A stretch of DNA of 56,377 nt from Bacteroidales bacterium (GTDB lineage: Bacteria; Bacteroidota; Bacteroidia; Bacteroidales; FEN-979): contig JACZJJ010000046.1 of the NCBI GenBank assembly GCA_014860625.1, forward strand, positions 1-56,377, read 5' to 3'. Of the stretch, positions 5,755-32,877 are shown one piece after another. A model generated the notes under the pieces. The model worked only from the letters and a program-made list of their open reading frames with translations. It searched no databases and was not told the origin of the DNA. Made by a program: the position numbers and the translations under genes. The number at the start of each line of letters is the position of its first letter. The stretch's first letter is position 1.

Positions 5755-7650
5755 TCATTCTATCCTCCCCACCGGATAAACCATCCGTTTGGCATCCCGG
5801 TAGGGGGTGTGTTCCAGAAACCAGTTTAGCACTTGCCATTGGTTCTTGATAAAGTTGCTGTCCGCTGCTTTTGCTTTTTCAAAACCGGCATTCAATTCCG
5901 GGTCTTCTTCCAGCATCTGTTTTGCCATCGGCTCCATCACATAAAACTCGAAATACTCCTTTTGCTCGAAGATGGGATTGAAAAAGCCCCAATAGAGAAG
6001 AGATCCATCGCCAATTGGTTCTAGCAGTTGCGCGATGACTCTCGCTGCAGACTGGGATGTCTCCACAATCATGGAACCTGCCGGAAAAACCCTATCTTCT
6101 GTAAAAGTTGTATACTCAATATGAGACAAAGGCAGCCTGCCTTCATAGGGGAAAGACCGCCAACGGGGAGAAACAAATTTGTACGAGGAGACATGGATGT
6201 TCGTATCATGTGAAACCTCCTTCATCCTGATGCCATGAAGTTTCAGTATCGAAATTACCTCCTGCCACTCCACCGGAATCACATAAGCAATGGGGAGCAT
6301 GGTGGTTTCCGAAGGAACACATGTTGAAAAAAGAGGTACTGTGAATGTTTCAGGTACAGAGGAGTACTTGAACCAGAGGCCGCCGGTAAGCTCACTTTGG
6401 ATGGTATCATACATAACCCCTCTGAATTCGACCATGATGCTGTCGGCATCAGAAAGTGTAAACCGAAGCGGAAAGGGGTGTGACCTGAATTCCGGCGATT
6501 GAACAAAAGCATCGGCATCCTGGTTTAATTTCTTTAGTTCCAGATACTGGTCATTCAGGATCTGCAGTGAGGCAACCAGACATTGGTAAGATGCCTCTAC
6601 CCGCTGTTTGTAAGGTTTCAGCATATGGGTCTCAACGAGCAGTCCGGGGCGGTTGCGAAGGGCAACATATCCCTGTGAAAGCATGGGAGGCGCCACATCC
6701 CGCTCCAAACCGCTTTTCGGATTGTGCCATTGTCTGAACTGGACGTAGGGGAAAACTGGGTTCCCGGAAGCTTCCAGGTCGCGGGTCCAGGCTGGAAGGA
6801 AGACAGAATCACACCAGGTTGTCAGCCCCTTGTCCATTTGTCCGAGGGTTTCCATCATGTAGGTCAGTACATATTGGTAGTCTGCCCCGTCTGTCGTGTG
6901 AATGTCGATGAAAAAATCGGGATTCCACTGTTGATACATCGTCAGCCATGCTTTCATCTCAGGTGCGTCGGCTTTCAGGAAGTCGCGGTTCAGGTTCAGG
7001 TTGGTGGCAGTAACCCGCCAGCCCATCTCTTCGGGGCCATTCTGGTTGATCCGGTTATACGGCCCAAAGCGTTCGTGCCCGTCCACGTTGAAGATAGGGA
7101 TGAAGAGGATTGAAACATGTTGGAGAAGATCCGGGATCCGGGATCCGGGATTAGTGATACGCGATCCGTTATCCAAAATGTCACTATCTGAGCCCTGAGC
7201 CCTGAGCCCTGAGCTATTTTTTTCGTCCCTCGTCCTTCGTCCTTCGTCCTTCGTCCCTCGTCCCTCATCCTTCGTCCTTCGTCCCTCGTCCCTCGTAACC
7301 AGGTCTCTGACGAGCATCAGCCCTGCATCTTTCCCTTCCGACTCTCCGGGATGGATACATGCCTGGATCATCAGGATTACGCGGCCGGAAGCTTTGATCT
7401 CTCCGGGGTTTGTTAATCCCTCTCTATCCACAATGAGCATTGGCAGTTCACGCCCTTGCGGACTTACGCCGAAGGAGGTGTAATGCACCATTGGCGAAAA
7501 ATCAGCCAGGTTCTTGCTGTATTCGATGGTTTCGGCATAACGGGGAGTGCGTTTTCCTCCGGATAATTCGTAATAGGTCATCCACTCTTGCTGGGAAAAG
7601 AGTGGAAAAGAGGCACACATCACGAAAAGGAGTAAACAAACACGTTTCAT
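5755..7650 (-). CDS. M14 family zinc carboxypeptidase with a repeat-derived insertion
   Basis: 631 residues from the ATG at 7650, chosen because it begins a signal peptide (MKRVCLLLFV ... PLFSQ) and because a promoter box lies at 7672-7679 inside the 16-codon upstream extension. M14 features: zinc ligands H100 and E103 in IHPGESEGKD, substrate-binding NLNRDF, the third zinc ligand in DIHTTDGADY, and a catalytic-Glu candidate in VETHMLKPY. Residues about 119-174 (bases 7129-7296) are a translation of tandem repeats (DEGRRTK-type heptads, then SGLRAQ and NPGSRIPD) inserted between two conserved parts of the fold. No T9SS tail is visible. Predicted periplasmic or secreted peptidase. Confidence 0.92.
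   Translation of the reverse strand: MKRVCLLLFVMCASFPLFSQQEWMTYYELSGGKRTPRYAETIEYSKNLADFSPMVHYTSFGVSPQGRELPMLIVDREGLTNPGEIKASGRVILMIQACIHPGESEGKDAGLMLVRDLVTRDEGRRTKDEGRGTKDEGRRTRDEKNSSGLRAQGSDSDILDNGSRITNPGSRIPDLLQHVSILFIPIFNVDGHERFGPYNRINQNGPEEMGWRVTATNLNLNRDFLKADAPEMKAWLTMYQQWNPDFFIDIHTTDGADYQYVLTYMMETLGQMDKGLTTWCDSVFLPAWTRDLEASGNPVFPYVQFRQWHNPKSGLERDVAPPMLSQGYVALRNRPGLLVETHMLKPYKQRVEASYQCLVASLQILNDQYLELKKLNQDADAFVQSPEFRSHPFPLRFTLSDADSIMVEFRGVMYDTIQSELTGGLWFKYSSVPETFTVPLFSTCVPSETTMLPIAYVIPVEWQEVISILKLHGIRMKEVSHDTNIHVSSYKFVSPRWRSFPYEGRLPLSHIEYTTFTEDRVFPAGSMIVETSQSAARVIAQLLEPIGDGSLLYWGFFNPIFEQKEYFEFYVMEPMAKQMLEEDPELNAGFEKAKAADSNFIKNQWQVLNWFLEHTPYRDAKRMVYPVGRIE
7129..7296 (-). repeat. Composite tandem-repeat insertion inside the M14 gene
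   Basis: Read on the minus strand: ten copies of GARGGAY (7 bases), a short A tract, about three and a half copies of CTCAGGG (7 bases), a spacer resembling the intergenic array after galE (GATAACGGATCGCG, ATTAATCCC-like), and three copies of ATCCCGG (7 bases). The block is about 168 bases, a multiple of three, and has no stop in the gene's frame. Confidence 0.93.
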
Positions 7651-7671
7651 AATAGTGAGAGTTTCTGAGAC

Positions 7672-7679
7672 CAAACATA
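7672..7679 (-). promoter_or_regulatory. -7 promoter box (TATGTTTG) of the M14 gene
   Basis: The minus strand reads TATGTTTG, a match to the Bacteroidota consensus TAnnTTTG, 22 bases before the chosen ATG at 7650. No clear TTTG -33 element was found. Confidence 0.55.
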
Positions 7680-7742
7680 CATAAAAAATTTCTTGCAATT
7701 CATATGGAAATTAACGGTATCTTTATTTCCCAAGGAGGAACA

Positions 7743-11331: not shown

Positions 11332-12680
11332 TGAAAACAATACGGATTTGGATGATTGCTGGCTTTGTTGTATTGATGTTCCCGGCTTTAAAAACAACCG
11401 CCCAGGAGAAGATATCTTTCACGCTGAAACAAGCTCAGGAGTTTGCGTATGAGCATAACTACGATTTGCAGAATGCCCGGTACGATGTTGAGATTGCCCG
11501 GAAAATTGTGAAGGAGAATACCTCCATTGGCTTGCCACAGATTGATGCTACTGCATCCTACATGGATAACATATTAAGGCCAACCTCCATCATCCCGAAT
11601 TTTTTTGATACGACCGGATTGGCACCCCCGCTTGAGATTCAGTTTGGTACCAGATACAATGCCAGCTTCTCCGCCCAACTTACACAGCTTATTTACAGTG
11701 GCCAGTATCTTGTAGGCCTTCAAACGGCTAGAGCCTACCTTGAAACGGAAAAAGAAAAGAATCTAAAGGCTCAGATCGACGTTCGGGATCTGGTTTCAGA
11801 GGCATACATCGCTTACCTGATCGTGGGAGAAAGTCTTAAAATTCTTGATTCTACCTACAAAACCGTTTCCCAGATGGTATATGAGACGGAGGAGTTTTAC
11901 AAAAGTGGTTTGATAGAGCAAATGGATGTTGAACAGATGGAGTTGAACGGAGCTACTCTGGAGGCAAGTCTCATTACCATGAGAAGCCAGAAACTGATCG
12001 CATACAATTACCTGAAGTTCCTCATGGGGATCGAAGAGACTCAGCAGATCATTCTTTCTGACAGCCTGGATCTCTTTCTGCAACGGATCAATCGGGATTA
12101 CCTGATGACCACCAATTTTGATTACGGCTTCAATATCAATTACCGTTTATTGAAAAAACAGGAATACCTCGTGCTGATGCAGTACAAACTGGCTAAAACA
12201 GCCTATCAGCCTTCACTGGTTGGGTTCTTTGATATTTCTACGAATGCTCAGCGGGAAACCTGGAATTTCTTTGATTCAAAGCAACGATGGTTCTCAAGCT
12301 CTTACTGGGGCATCCAGCTGAATATTCCTATCTGGAGCAGCGGAGGCAGGAAAAACGCAGTGGATCAGGCTGCAATCAATGTGGAGAAAATGAAAGTGCT
12401 GGACAAGCAGACCCGAACCTCTCTGAACCTGCAGGTCGAGACAGTCCGCAACGATTTTAATACGGCATACCTGGTCTTTCTGAATAAAAAGAAGAGCCTC
12501 CAAACGGCCTCCAAAATCTACGAACAAACCATCATCAAATACCGCCAGGGATTGGCATCCAGTACGGATCTCAACCAGAAATACAACCAGTTCCTTATCA
12601 TGGAAGCGGAATATACTCAGGCCATGTTCGACTTGCTCAAAACCAATATAGCGCTTTCGAAACTCCTAGAGAAAGTTTGA
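11331..12680 (+). CDS. TolC family outer-membrane efflux protein
   Basis: 449 residues from ATG 11331; a GTG at 11328 is the alternative. There is a signal peptide (cleavage near TTAQE) followed by the two-repeat alpha-helical OEP pattern. The first repeat has FTLKQAQEFAYEHNYDLQNA and IVKENTSIGLPQIDATASY; the second has MQYKLAKTAYQPSLVGF and later YRQGLASSTDLNQKYNQFL. This is the outer-membrane channel of tripartite efflux pumps. The matching pump genes lie immediately downstream but on the opposite strand, converging on it. The stop codon is directly followed by a heptamer array. Confidence 0.92.
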   Translation: MKTIRIWMIAGFVVLMFPALKTTAQEKISFTLKQAQEFAYEHNYDLQNARYDVEIARKIVKENTSIGLPQIDATASYMDNILRPTSIIPNFFDTTGLAPPLEIQFGTRYNASFSAQLTQLIYSGQYLVGLQTARAYLETEKEKNLKAQIDVRDLVSEAYIAYLIVGESLKILDSTYKTVSQMVYETEEFYKSGLIEQMDVEQMELNGATLEASLITMRSQKLIAYNYLKFLMGIEETQQIILSDSLDLFLQRINRDYLMTTNFDYGFNINYRLLKKQEYLVLMQYKLAKTAYQPSLVGFFDISTNAQRETWNFFDSKQRWFSSSYWGIQLNIPIWSSGGRKNAVDQAAINVEKMKVLDKQTRTSLNLQVETVRNDFNTAYLVFLNKKKSLQTASKIYEQTIIKYRQGLASSTDLNQKYNQFLIMEAEYTQAMFDLLKTNIALSKLLEKV

Positions 12681-12714
12681 TGCTGGATACTGGATGCTGG
12701 ATACTGGATGCTGG
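12680..12714. repeat. Heptamer array CTGGATR after tolC
   Basis: About five units alternating CTGGATA and CTGGATG; the first base of the array is the last base of the tolC stop codon. It lies in the 63-base gap between the convergent tolC and RND genes. The same unit recurs, reverse-complemented, at 19911-19930 and, degenerate, at 29928-29955. Confidence 0.95.
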
Positions 12715-23958: not shown

Positions 23959-23965
23959 AACTAGA

Positions 23966-24023
23966 TCACTGGATCACTGGATGACTCTTTCCTACTTTCC
24001 TACTTCCCTACTTCCCTACTCTC
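23966..24023. repeat. Octamer arrays between buk and elbB
   Basis: GATCACTG twice with a degenerate third copy, then about four copies of CTACTTCC-type 8-mers. They fill the 65-base gap between two convergent genes; the stop codon of elbB (complement of 24024-24026) lies within the last unit. Confidence 0.9.
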
Positions 24024-24671
24024 CTACATCACCTTCAGCATCTCCCTCACAATATTCGACGTACCAGCCTCAATCTCACTGATCCGTGCATCCAGCATGT
24101 AACAGGGGGTAGTAAAGAGTTTCTTTTCCCGATCAATCACTACTTCCCCATGTGTAGTGTTCGTATACTTGTTCCCCATCTTCTCAATAAATCCGCCTGA
24201 AGCCTGATCCTGACCCGTGGTAAGGTTTGTCCCATCGAAAAGTTTTGCCAGAATTACCGGCGCAATGCACATCGCCCCAATGGGCTTCCCTGCGGCGAAC
24301 GTGGTCTGGATTGCCTTCTCTACATCCGGATTCACCGTGCATTCGTCTCCCTTAAAAGCCCAGTCACAGAGGTTTTTTGCGGCGCCGAACCCTCCCGGGA
24401 TGATCAATCCGTCGAATGTCACCGGACTGTATTCACTCAAGGGTTTGATGTTCCCCCTGGAAATACGTGCCGACTCAACCAGCACATTCCGGGTTTCAGC
24501 GCTTTCTTCCCCCTTGAGATGGTTGACAACATGGGCCTGATTCATATCCGGAGCAAAACACTGATAGGCAGCTCCCTGTTTGTCAATGGCTAAAAGGGTC
24601 AATACGGCTTCATGGATCTCAGCTCCATCGTAAACACCGCAACCAGCTAAAATGACTGCAATTTTTTTCAT
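24024..24671 (-). CDS. elbB: ElbB-like DJ-1/PfpI family glyoxalase
   Basis: 215 residues. The DJ-1 fold nucleophile elbow lies at IGAMCIAPVILAK, and the ElbB-specific N-terminus VILAGCGVYDGAEIHEAV, FAPDMNQAHVVNHLKGE, and LIIPGGFGAAKNLCDWA are present. The conserved acidic residue of the active site is likely the Glu in YDGAEIHEA. E. coli ElbB has weak glyoxalase activity and was linked to isoprenoid synthesis, but its real role is unsettled. Divergent from the nucleotide-sugar cassette with back-to-back promoters. Confidence 0.92.
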   Translation of the reverse strand: MKKIAVILAGCGVYDGAEIHEAVLTLLAIDKQGAAYQCFAPDMNQAHVVNHLKGEESAETRNVLVESARISRGNIKPLSEYSPVTFDGLIIPGGFGAAKNLCDWAFKGDECTVNPDVEKAIQTTFAAGKPIGAMCIAPVILAKLFDGTNLTTGQDQASGGFIEKMGNKYTNTTHGEVVIDREKKLFTTPCYMLDARISEIEAGTSNIVREMLKVM

Positions 24672-28816: not shown

Positions 28817-28847
28817 TTCAATTACGAATTACGAATGACGAATTAAA
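28815..28847. repeat. ATTACGA heptamer array at the dehydrogenase stop
   Basis: Degenerate copies of ACGAATT/ACGAATG. The array begins within the TAA stop codon (28814-28816) and ends about 10 bases before the galE ATG. Confidence 0.85.
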
Positions 28848-28857
28848 ATTTTCTGTC

Positions 28858-29880
28858 ATGAAGATATTGGTAACGGGTGGAACAGGGTATATTGGATCAC
28901 ATACCGTTGTGGAACTTCAGGAAAAGGGATATGAAGTTGTTATCGTTGATAACCTATCTAACTCTTCCATTGAAGTTCTGGACAACATTGCAAAAATCAC
29001 AGGAAAGCGCCCTCAATTTGAACAGTTTGACCTGACGGAGCAGAAGAGAACTGCCGAGTTTTTCGCGGCAAACAGTGACATTGAGGCCATCATCCACTTC
29101 GCTGCTTTCAAGGCAGTGGGAGAGTCGGTTGAAAAACCGTTGATGTACTACCGTAACAATTTGATCTCACTGATGAATATCCTTCAGGGGATGATCGACA
29201 ACCGGGTCAAAAACATTGTATTTTCTTCATCCTGCACGGTTTACGGTCAGCCGGAGAAGCTCCCGGTAAGTGAGAGTTCTCCGATTCAAAAAGCGTGGTC
29301 ACCCTACGGCAATACCAAACAGATGTCGGAAGAGATCATTCAGTTTACTTCGGATGTCAATGACCTTCAGGCCATTCTGTTAAGATATTTTAATCCGATA
29401 GGAGCACATGAGTCAGCCCTCATCGGGGAGTTACCTATCGGTGTTCCCAACTGCCTGATGCCTTACATCACACAAACGGCTATCGGCATCCGGGAGTTTC
29501 TTCGGGTTTGGGGCGACGATTATCCCACTCCCGACGGAACAGCCATCCGGGATTACATCCACGTGGTAGACCTTGCGAAAGCTCATGTGATCGCAATCGA
29601 ACGGATGATAGAGAAACGGAGCAATAAAAAGGTTGAAATTTTCAATCTTGGAACAGGTAATGGGTTTTCAGTGATGGAGGTGATCAAATCGTTCGAAAGA
29701 GCAAGCGGAGTAAAATTGAACTACCAGATCATGGAACGCAGGTCTGGTGACGTGGTAGAGGTTTGGTCTGATACGGAATATGCCAACAAGGAGCTGGGAT
29801 GGAAGGCTGAGAAACCACTCGATGAGATGACCCTGTCGGCATGGAAGTGGGAGGAAGCGCTTGCAAAAAAAAGGGATTAG
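28858..29880 (+). CDS. galE: UDP-glucose 4-epimerase
   Basis: 340 residues from ATG 28858; the longer frame would start inside the previous gene. Extended SDR: NAD-binding MKILVTGGTGYIGSHTVVEL, active-site SSSCTVYGQP and YGNTK (Tyr-x3-Lys), substrate loop NPIGAHESALIGE, and DYIHVVDLAKAH. It interconverts UDP-glucose/galactose and often the N-acetyl forms. The last residues (KKRD) and the stop codon are part of the repeat array that follows. Confidence 0.95.
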   Translation: MKILVTGGTGYIGSHTVVELQEKGYEVVIVDNLSNSSIEVLDNIAKITGKRPQFEQFDLTEQKRTAEFFAANSDIEAIIHFAAFKAVGESVEKPLMYYRNNLISLMNILQGMIDNRVKNIVFSSSCTVYGQPEKLPVSESSPIQKAWSPYGNTKQMSEEIIQFTSDVNDLQAILLRYFNPIGAHESALIGELPIGVPNCLMPYITQTAIGIREFLRVWGDDYPTPDGTAIRDYIHVVDLAKAHVIAIERMIEKRSNKKVEIFNLGTGNGFSVMEVIKSFERASGVKLNYQIMERRSGDVVEVWSDTEYANKELGWKAEKPLDEMTLSAWKWEEALAKKRD

Positions 29881-29955
29881 CGATTAGGGATCAGGGATTA
29901 GGGAACAAGAAAGTTTTTTAGTAACCAGGATCCAGTATCGAGAATCCAGCATCAA
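29872..29955. repeat. ATTAGGG and ATCCAGY arrays after galE
   Basis: GGGATTAGCGATTAGGGATC and following degenerate 7-mers start inside the last codons of galE (Arg-Asp-stop is GGGATTAG). A second block at 29928-29955 carries degenerate ATCCAGT/ATCCAGC units like those at 12680 and 19911. It fills most of the 86-base gap to rfbB. Confidence 0.88.
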
Positions 29956-31022: not shown

Positions 31023-31028
31023 GGTTCA

Positions 31029-31110
31029 ATGCAGGAATGCAAGAATGCAGGAATGCAGGAATTAAGCCCGTTCACTTGTCCGCCTGTCCGCTTGTCCGCT
31101 TGTCCACCTG
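31029..31110. repeat. Two octamer arrays between rfbB and fabD
   Basis: About four copies of CAGGAATG (31029-31061 region), then four of CTTGTCCG/CCTGTCCG (31074-31110). They occupy the whole 90-base gap between two convergent genes and end just before the fabD stop. Confidence 0.93.
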
Positions 31111-32028: not shown

Positions 32029-32096
32029 CCTAAACCTTTACCTCTTACCTCTCACCTCTTACCTCTCACCTCTCACCTCTTACTTCTTACTTCTTA
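32029..32096. repeat. ACCTCTT heptamer array reaching into the BI-1 stop codon
   Basis: About nine copies of ACCTCTT/ACCTCTC/ACTTCTT. The TAA stop of the BI-1 gene (complement of 32094-32096) is itself part of the last unit. Confidence 0.95.
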
Positions 32097-32828
32097 CCTT
32101 CTGTCTCCAAGCAACCTCAGCAAAAACAGAAAGAGGTTGATGAAATCAAGGTAGAGCGTAAGCGCTCCCATGATGGCCATTTTCCGTGTATTACCGGCAT
32201 CCAACGTCTGGCTTCCAATCCGTTTAAGTTTTTGTACATCATAGGCCGTGAGTCCTGTAAATACCAGGACACCGATCACACTGATAAGGTACTCCAATGC
32301 ATTGGATTTCAGGAAGAAATTAACCACCATTGCGATGATAATTCCAATCAGCCCCATGAACATGATGGACCCGAACTTAGTCAGGTCGGTTTTGGTGGTG
32401 TATCCTGTTACAGCCATGATGCCGAACATCCCGGCTGCTATGGCGAATGTCTGGTATACGGAAGCCGCAGTATAGACAATCAGAATAAAGCTTAGGCTCA
32501 TCCCGATCAGAATGGCAAAAGCGATAAACAGAAGTGTCATTATGGCAGGTGAGAGCTTTTGATATCCAAATGACATCAGTAAAACAAAACCCAATGGTGC
32601 CAGCATGACAAACCATCCCAGTGGGGACATCTTTCCAGTTTCAAAATTGACAAGGGAGCCAATCAGTGCCTGGTCAGATGCAAACCAATAGGCTGTGACC
32701 GCTGTAATTATCATAGCCAGGGTCATCCACAGAAACACACTGGCCATAAAGGTTTTAGCTATAGCACCGGTCTCTGCCTGAGCCTTGGAACCGGTTGCAA
32801 ATAATCCTTGATTATTCTGTCCAATCAT
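32094..32828 (-). CDS. Bax inhibitor-1/YccA family membrane protein
   Basis: 244 residues with seven hydrophobic helices from about residue 27 on, ending with GALTLYLDFINLFLFLLRLLG, the most conserved BI-1 signature. The GLTAYDVQKLKRIG block before helix 7 is also diagnostic. An AGGAGA site lies 6 bases before the ATG. Bacterial members are inner-membrane proteins, some shown to be pH-dependent calcium channels; E. coli YccA modulates FtsH. No specific role can be given here. Confidence 0.92.
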   Translation of the reverse strand: MIGQNNQGLFATGSKAQAETGAIAKTFMASVFLWMTLAMIITAVTAYWFASDQALIGSLVNFETGKMSPLGWFVMLAPLGFVLLMSFGYQKLSPAIMTLLFIAFAILIGMSLSFILIVYTAASVYQTFAIAAGMFGIMAVTGYTTKTDLTKFGSIMFMGLIGIIIAMVVNFFLKSNALEYLISVIGVLVFTGLTAYDVQKLKRIGSQTLDAGNTRKMAIMGALTLYLDFINLFLFLLRLLGDRR

Positions 32829-32845
32829 TATTATTTCTCCTATAA

Positions 32846-32877
32846 TTTATTTCACTATTTCGCTATTTCACTATTTT
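32846..32877. repeat. TTCACTAT octamer array at the folE stop codon
   Basis: TTCACTAT, TTCGCTAT, TTCACTAT and a partial copy run up to the folE stop codon (complement of 32878-32880). Confidence 0.88.

Follow-up and report, generated by a model that had tools for sequence, protein, structure and literature searches.

How does an array of heptanucleotides, whose unit is not a multiple of three, come to lie inside a conserved enzyme gene, and is such a gene an accident or an example? This question is raised by a 56,377-nucleotide contig of a Bacteroidales bacterium (FEN-979), here called the window, whose genome we denote G000. A sequence-only reading had placed three heptamer arrays in frame inside an M14 peptidase, coding for a charged seven-residue repeat (DEGRRTK-like). 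TRF, the open frame, and a Pfam match bear this out, repeat peptide included (Table 1): the minus-strand frame 5758-7710 is stop-free across all three arrays, and its product matches Peptidase_M14 (PF00246; E = 9e-13). The 7-nt self-match of the loop DNA is 0.67, a value reached by 0 of 1,000 mononucleotide shuffles; periods 8 and 9 were not enriched in the same test. Between arrays 3 and 2 lie decayed heptamers. Since 7 shares no factor with 3, the heptapeptide is only rotated among the three frames of a strand, and thus a single stop-free text is open in any frame.

TABLE 1 Features of the M14 locus and its repeat arrays in the window
Feature	Position	Strand	Unit or product	Basis
M14 zinc carboxypeptidase-like gene	5758..7650	-	631 aa from ATG at 7650; probable exported enzyme	
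Hydrophobic N-terminal segment, likely signal peptide, then Gln	7594..7650	-		Translation reading; helix 2-19 in model
Repeat-coded loop, in frame	7129..7296	-	Residues 119-174 (56 aa), counted from ATG at 7650	Homologue alignment; pLDDT under 50 at 123-170
Array 1	7223..7296	-	Sense GGACGAA/GGACGAG (TCGTCCC-type in TRF), 10.6 copies; DEGRRTK-type peptide	TRF
Array 2	7188..7214	-	Sense GGCTCAG (CTGAGCC in TRF), 3.9 copies	TRF
Decayed heptamers	about 7149..7174	-	Sense GGATAAC, GGATCGC, GTATCAC, TAATCCC	Direct sequence reading
Array 3	7128..7151	-	Sense GGATCCC (GATCCGG in TRF), 3.4 copies	TRF
Two further heptamer arrays, starting at the M14 stop codon	5628..5753	-	Sense GGAAGAA, then TAGCGAA	TRF

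Judged from its sequence, the M14 gene looks functional. The predicted structure has the carboxypeptidase fold of peptidase family M14, with a Foldseek match to 4b6z (E = 1.7e-10) and a Z score of 25.6 against carboxypeptidases (rmsd 3.0 over 255 residues, model range 29-370). Whole-query Foldseek TM-scores are low (0.26-0.34) because only residues 21-370 match the M14 fold. The window protein retains intact HPGE/HAGE, NLNLNRD, HTTDGADY, and catalytic-Glu motifs, all of them conserved across 81 homologues, among which HPGE at 100 and the Glu of LVETH are invariant or conserved; H100, E103, H251, and E340 are invariant in an alignment of 50 homologues. The family's HxxE ... H zinc ligands and catalytic Glu are present, with residue roles that we assume to be those of carboxypeptidase A. 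Comparison of G000 with five congeners, loop columns included, gave pN values of 0.17-0.23 and pS values of 0.70-0.81 (saturated), and purifying selection is seen in M14, IspG, and CinA. Separately, the likely signal peptide is followed by Gln at residue 20 (window 7590-7593), in line with the Bacteroidetes Q-rule as given in excerpts of PMC10653852.

Where does the repeat sit in the fold? AlphaFold with a 50-homologue alignment produced a model with a mean pLDDT of 87 and a pTM of 0.84; a single-sequence prediction was discarded (mean pLDDT 33). The pLDDT falls below 50 over at least 3 consecutive residues in one segment only, 123-170, which is flanked by helix 105-118 and strand 179-184. Profile alignment to insect carboxypeptidase A likewise places the loop between the helix that follows the zinc motif and the next strand. 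The insert site is, in the model, a natural helix-strand linker that is predicted to be disordered. The sequence-only reading had put it near the active site, which the model does not favor: helix 105-118 begins just after H100/E103 of HPGE and runs away from the zinc motif, and the loop follows its C-terminal end, so it should lie on the far face, away from the active site. That the enzyme tolerates the loop, as was also suggested, is probable given the intact motifs, a pN well below pS, and the predicted disorder.

In most homologues the site is short. The GKDA-to-NxDG segment spans 37 residues in 58 of the 81 homologues and 36 to 64 in the remainder, except for 80 in the congener G001 and 86 in the window. 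An M14 orthologue is present in all five other genus members examined and in most other family members examined (a match at E 0.001 in 25 of 41 genomes, G000 itself and one weak hit counted). Each genus member carries heptamers in this loop, and the text varies: the three-array composite in G000, AAGAGGG and AAAATCG heptamers in G001, four GGATCC heptamers (the text of array 3) in the DNA of G003 and G004, and, in G002 and G005, CATCCAG or ATCCGGC heptamers preceded by a GC-rich hairpin element. The 7-nt periodicity is significant in 6/6 genus members (p ≤ 0.008), and 0/10 scored homologues outside the genus reach p 0.01. Nor do any aligned homologues outside the genus carry the same residues at this place, a finding that would have told against the sequence-only reading.

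These comparisons do not sustain the earlier suggestion that the repeats entered an uninterrupted gene as a single block. Since the GGATCC part is common to G003 and G004 and all five congeners carry repeat text, the loop was probably already repeat bearing and the G000 composite is probably layered. Among the matches listed, a blastn search of the composite against the sampled loci found one array type at a time and never the whole composite.

Arrays also recur just beyond the gene. They start at or within a few bases of the M14 stop codon in G000, G001, G002, and G003, with a different text in each; in the 3' contexts of the six species, G004 and G005 have no array at this end. Elsewhere in the window, arrays lie at 12679-12714, 23960-24027, 28820-28845, 29872-29904, 31028-31110, 32034-32099, and 32848-32876, mostly at gene boundaries, some of them made of 8-nt units, with two different texts side by side.

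The M14 case is not isolated but is one of many coding arrays in G000. A survey of 595 kb of G000 and 104 kb of congeners contained 101 heptamer clusters, which made 38 cluster-ORF pairs with at least 150 nt of open frame on each side, in 33 distinct ORFs. Nine of these were left out of the Pfam scan (six overlapping frames, most of them shorter ones, and three M14 orthologues). Besides M14, 22 of the 23 scanned array-containing ORFs match families of varied function, including IspG/GcpE, AnmK, Mur ligase, radical SAM, LacZ-type GH2, CinA, CysN/C, 2-oxoacid dehydrogenase acyltransferase, saccharopine dehydrogenase, GH127, and alpha-2-macroglobulin. Pfam-supported ORFs enclose 12 of the 52 clusters in the part of the sample not picked for repeats; 12 G000 stretches (L144-L155) picked by a DEGRRTK peptide match were excluded from this count and from the vocabulary test below. 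Sampled stretches of other genomes partly surround matches to M14, IspG, CinA, or the radical SAM (rSAM) protein.

Is the loop, and not only the gene, the same across species? Six genes besides M14 were chosen from the 23 scanned ORFs before their relatives were examined: IspG, CinA, AnmK, saccharopine dehydrogenase, PHP, and the rSAM protein. A loop was scored by the best of periods 7-9 at p ≤ 0.01, for which ∼3% positives are expected by chance. With G000's own loops left out, 24 of 28 congeneric orthologues have a loop with 7- to 9-nt periodicity. Outside the genus, 4 of 32 do (IspG of G006, G008, and G009 and AnmK of G028); loops there are shorter (mean, 13 versus 31 aa), so the test has less power, although two 10-aa loops within the genus still pass. 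The four congeneric loops without significant periodicity are those of AnmK in G002 and G005, saccharopine dehydrogenase in G001, and PHP in G004, the last of which holds a hairpin element. In IspG the loop after PGNY is heptamer periodic also in three other genera of the family (G006 L164, G008 L163, and G009 L165), and the phenomenon is thus not strictly genus bound.

The repeats at one position differ in more than text. IspG of G002, the rSAM protein of G001 and G005, and saccharopine dehydrogenase of G005 have 8-nt instead of 7-nt units at the same loop, and in the CinA loop of G001 an 8-nt period is stronger than 7. At a fixed loop, both the text and the unit length are replaced. Throughout, the genes stay open: both 57-residue flanks lie in one stop-free frame in 28/28 congeneric orthologues of the seven genes. 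A genome search flagged single stops in saccharopine dehydrogenase of G002, PHP of G003, and IspG of G005, none of them between the tested flanks.

The GC-rich hairpin element, whose core is CCCCCTTNAGGGGG or a near variant, lies in frame in three genes: M14 (G002 and G005), a SelD fusion (G002), and PHP (G004). Its positions are L138:10681 and 19353, L142 at minus-strand position 603, and the PHP gene of G004 in L310. The fusion, a class-V aminotransferase-SelD-like protein, has repeat text at two positions, which are the same in G002 and G005 (L138:18223-19998 and L142:11898-14213). A small palindrome, AGCCGCAATTTATTGCGGCT, occurs among or beside heptamer arrays of G000 (L055:4314, L150:10595, and L221:7357) and once in the G004 sample.

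How widespread is the 7-nt step, and how widespread are the texts? A 358.6-kb sample of G000 contains 81 exact heptamer runs, versus 0 in one order-2 Markov simulation of the same size. Per 100 kb, an unbiased G000 sample has 21.6 runs, the congeners have 7.8-16.7, and five other family genomes have 6.7-21.7; given these densities, 7-nt arrays are family-wide. Texts behave differently. When one text is counted per cluster, only 50 of 87 in G000 are distinct (about 83 expected). G000 texts account for 26 of the 53 distinct texts of five other genus members and for 2 of 40 in five other family genomes (chance, 0.058). G000 has 125 occurrences of the array 1 text, GGACGARGGACGARGG, and 0 of its reversed-letter control; the three-unit pattern has 99 occurrences there, and a search of 295 other Bacteroidota genomes gave a single occurrence in each of 4. 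We read the 7-nt step as common machinery and the text as lineage history.

Within G000 the arrays are spread unevenly (L038-L043, L053, and L055): a 157-kb contig (C147) is almost array free over the 120 kb read, and the short contigs C10 and C12 are dense. An "AA" anchor common to the heptamers was considered and rejected (AA or TT in 0.63 of text occurrences versus 0.62 expected). Purine asymmetry stands above expectation, with six or seven purines or pyrimidines on one strand in 48 of 141 heptamers (expected, about 0.12), in a sample that includes stretches picked for GGACGAR-like arrays and counts neighbors, for which reason we do not rely on it. Of the 20 GGACGAR arrays of G000, 9 have other heptamer arrays only on their 3' side, 0 only on their 5' side, 2 on both sides, and 9 on neither (p = 0.004); such polarity was not significant in the other array families. 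Inheritance of unit length between neighboring arrays of different text was rejected, with lengths mixing nearly at random: dissimilar neighbors within 80 nt comprise 22 7-7, 12 7-8, and 2 8-8 pairs (from 183 heptamer and 41 octamer arrays).

We propose, with a probability of roughly 0.6, that permissive surface loops host simple-repeat DNA that grows in 7-nt steps, is replaced often, and is filtered for open frames. In M14, the loop joins the helix after HPGE to the next core strand at a place where length and sequence would matter little for folding. Short units, mostly of 7 nt, would be duplicated into arrays genome-wide, with slippage or duplication in 7-nt steps as the likely source, and favored texts would recur at many loci, perhaps copied from one locus to another. 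Arrays that fall in a loop would be retained if stop-free and of compatible total length. The genus loops may have carried repeats already in the common ancestor or may have been hit repeatedly; the text, and sometimes the unit length, would then be replaced in each species, a turnover that we read from one genome per species. The product would presumably be translated as a disordered, charged linker without a specific function.

The strongest competitor holds that each loop vertically inherited one ancestral array, which then diverged by point mutation and was rehomogenized by slippage. Several observations speak for it: GGATCC text is common to G000, G003, and G004, SGIRHPA-type IspG text is common to G001, G003, and G004, in 5 of 6 species the M14 array closes in one register, with ...ATC immediately followed by the T of the next codon, and in-phase alignment is strictly best in 44 of 63 neighboring array pairs. 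Drift, however, does not turn a 7-nt unit into an 8-nt unit or the reverse, as seen at the same loop in five cases, nor does it place a hairpin element in the loop of M14 in G002 and G005 or of PHP in G004; both need replacement. As a full account this competitor has a real but small chance, and vertical drift may be part of the history of these loops.

Another possibility, which we consider unlikely, is that the genus keeps a fixed set of repeat-docking loops in its proteome, into which a dedicated process deposits short-unit arrays, and rewrites them, in a polar order of texts and in the same core-enzyme loops of each species. If true, it would give these bacteria a standing supply of new disordered linkers.

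Blockwise mobile dispersal, in which each composite array is copied whole to new loci, along with small hairpin elements, much as Rickettsia palindromic elements are, would explain why genus-specific texts recur at many loci, why hairpin elements share the loops, and why GGACGAR arrays are polar, with other arrays on their 3' side (p = 0.004). That polarity does not extend significantly to other array families, however, and the whole M14 composite had no blastn counterpart among the matches listed for the sampled loci. We regard dispersal of this kind as decidedly unlikely.

Known contingency loci have tetramer and pentamer repeats, and a heptamer is likewise not a multiple of three, so that slippage by one or two units would throw the gene out of frame and silence the enzyme; such a phase-variation switch is very improbable here, as 28/28 orthologues of the seven genes are in frame (one genome per species), the genes include IspG, CinA, and AnmK, and the units are degenerate. 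An assembly artefact or a decaying pseudogene is hardly credible: the draft genome has 171 contigs, and short contigs can break at repeats, but congeners have independent in-frame repeats at the same M14 loop, pN is well below pS, and the catalytic motifs are intact.

If replacement in permissive loops is right, unit length does not keep simple-repeat DNA out of core genes, and 7- and 8-nt arrays persist genus-wide in loops of IspG, CinA, AnmK, and other enzymes, in frame and with their text swapped. The genus would then offer a natural experiment on how much a loop tolerates and how disordered protein segments arise. Why 7 nt is favored in bacterial arrays, and whether texts spread by slippage or by copying, would become testable.

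The ingredients have precedents. Seven-nucleotide units dominate bacterial arrays according to Mrazek 2007, as described in the excerpted text of PMC4679880, where slippage with a 7-nt polymerase contact or footprint is given as that author's proposal; GGGAATC heptamer repeats appear in excerpts of PMC4692102. The arrays described here share with these heptanucleotide simple sequence repeats the tandem 7-nt units, above chance and at many loci, and the genome-wide spread of one text or of many. The excerpts of those two papers stress intergenic sites, and PMC4679880 names units divisible by three as those most likely in coding regions, whereas here 7-nt arrays lie inside many conserved genes and in the same loop in relatives. 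Rickettsia palindromic elements, as portrayed in passages of PMC10969869, also place in-frame repeat DNA in unrelated metabolic genes, apparently tolerated by the fold, much as 22 of our 23 scanned ORFs do; those elements are ∼150-bp palindromes with a conserved peptide, whereas the window insert consists of plain heptamers that differ in each species, with hairpins sharing some loops. Borg genomes (PMC9879509, in extract) have tandem repeats in ORFs that give disordered regions and whose texts are of independent origin, but there all units are divisible by three and texts are unique, unlike the 7- or 8-nt units and recurring texts described here. In the P6b region of the Nostoc trnL intron (PMC4476775, in extract), the motif at one loop position was replaced several times independently, as here, but that is an intron RNA loop and ours is a protein loop. 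Among the papers listed in our search of the open-access literature, none describes a genus whose species replace the heptamer arrays of the same protein loops. Both heptamer arrays and in-frame selfish DNA have been described before, each on its own; arrays that swap text in the same loop, with units not divisible by three, look like a new form. The M14 repeat loop is real and unusual, one example of a genus-wide pattern in which known ingredients stand in a new arrangement.
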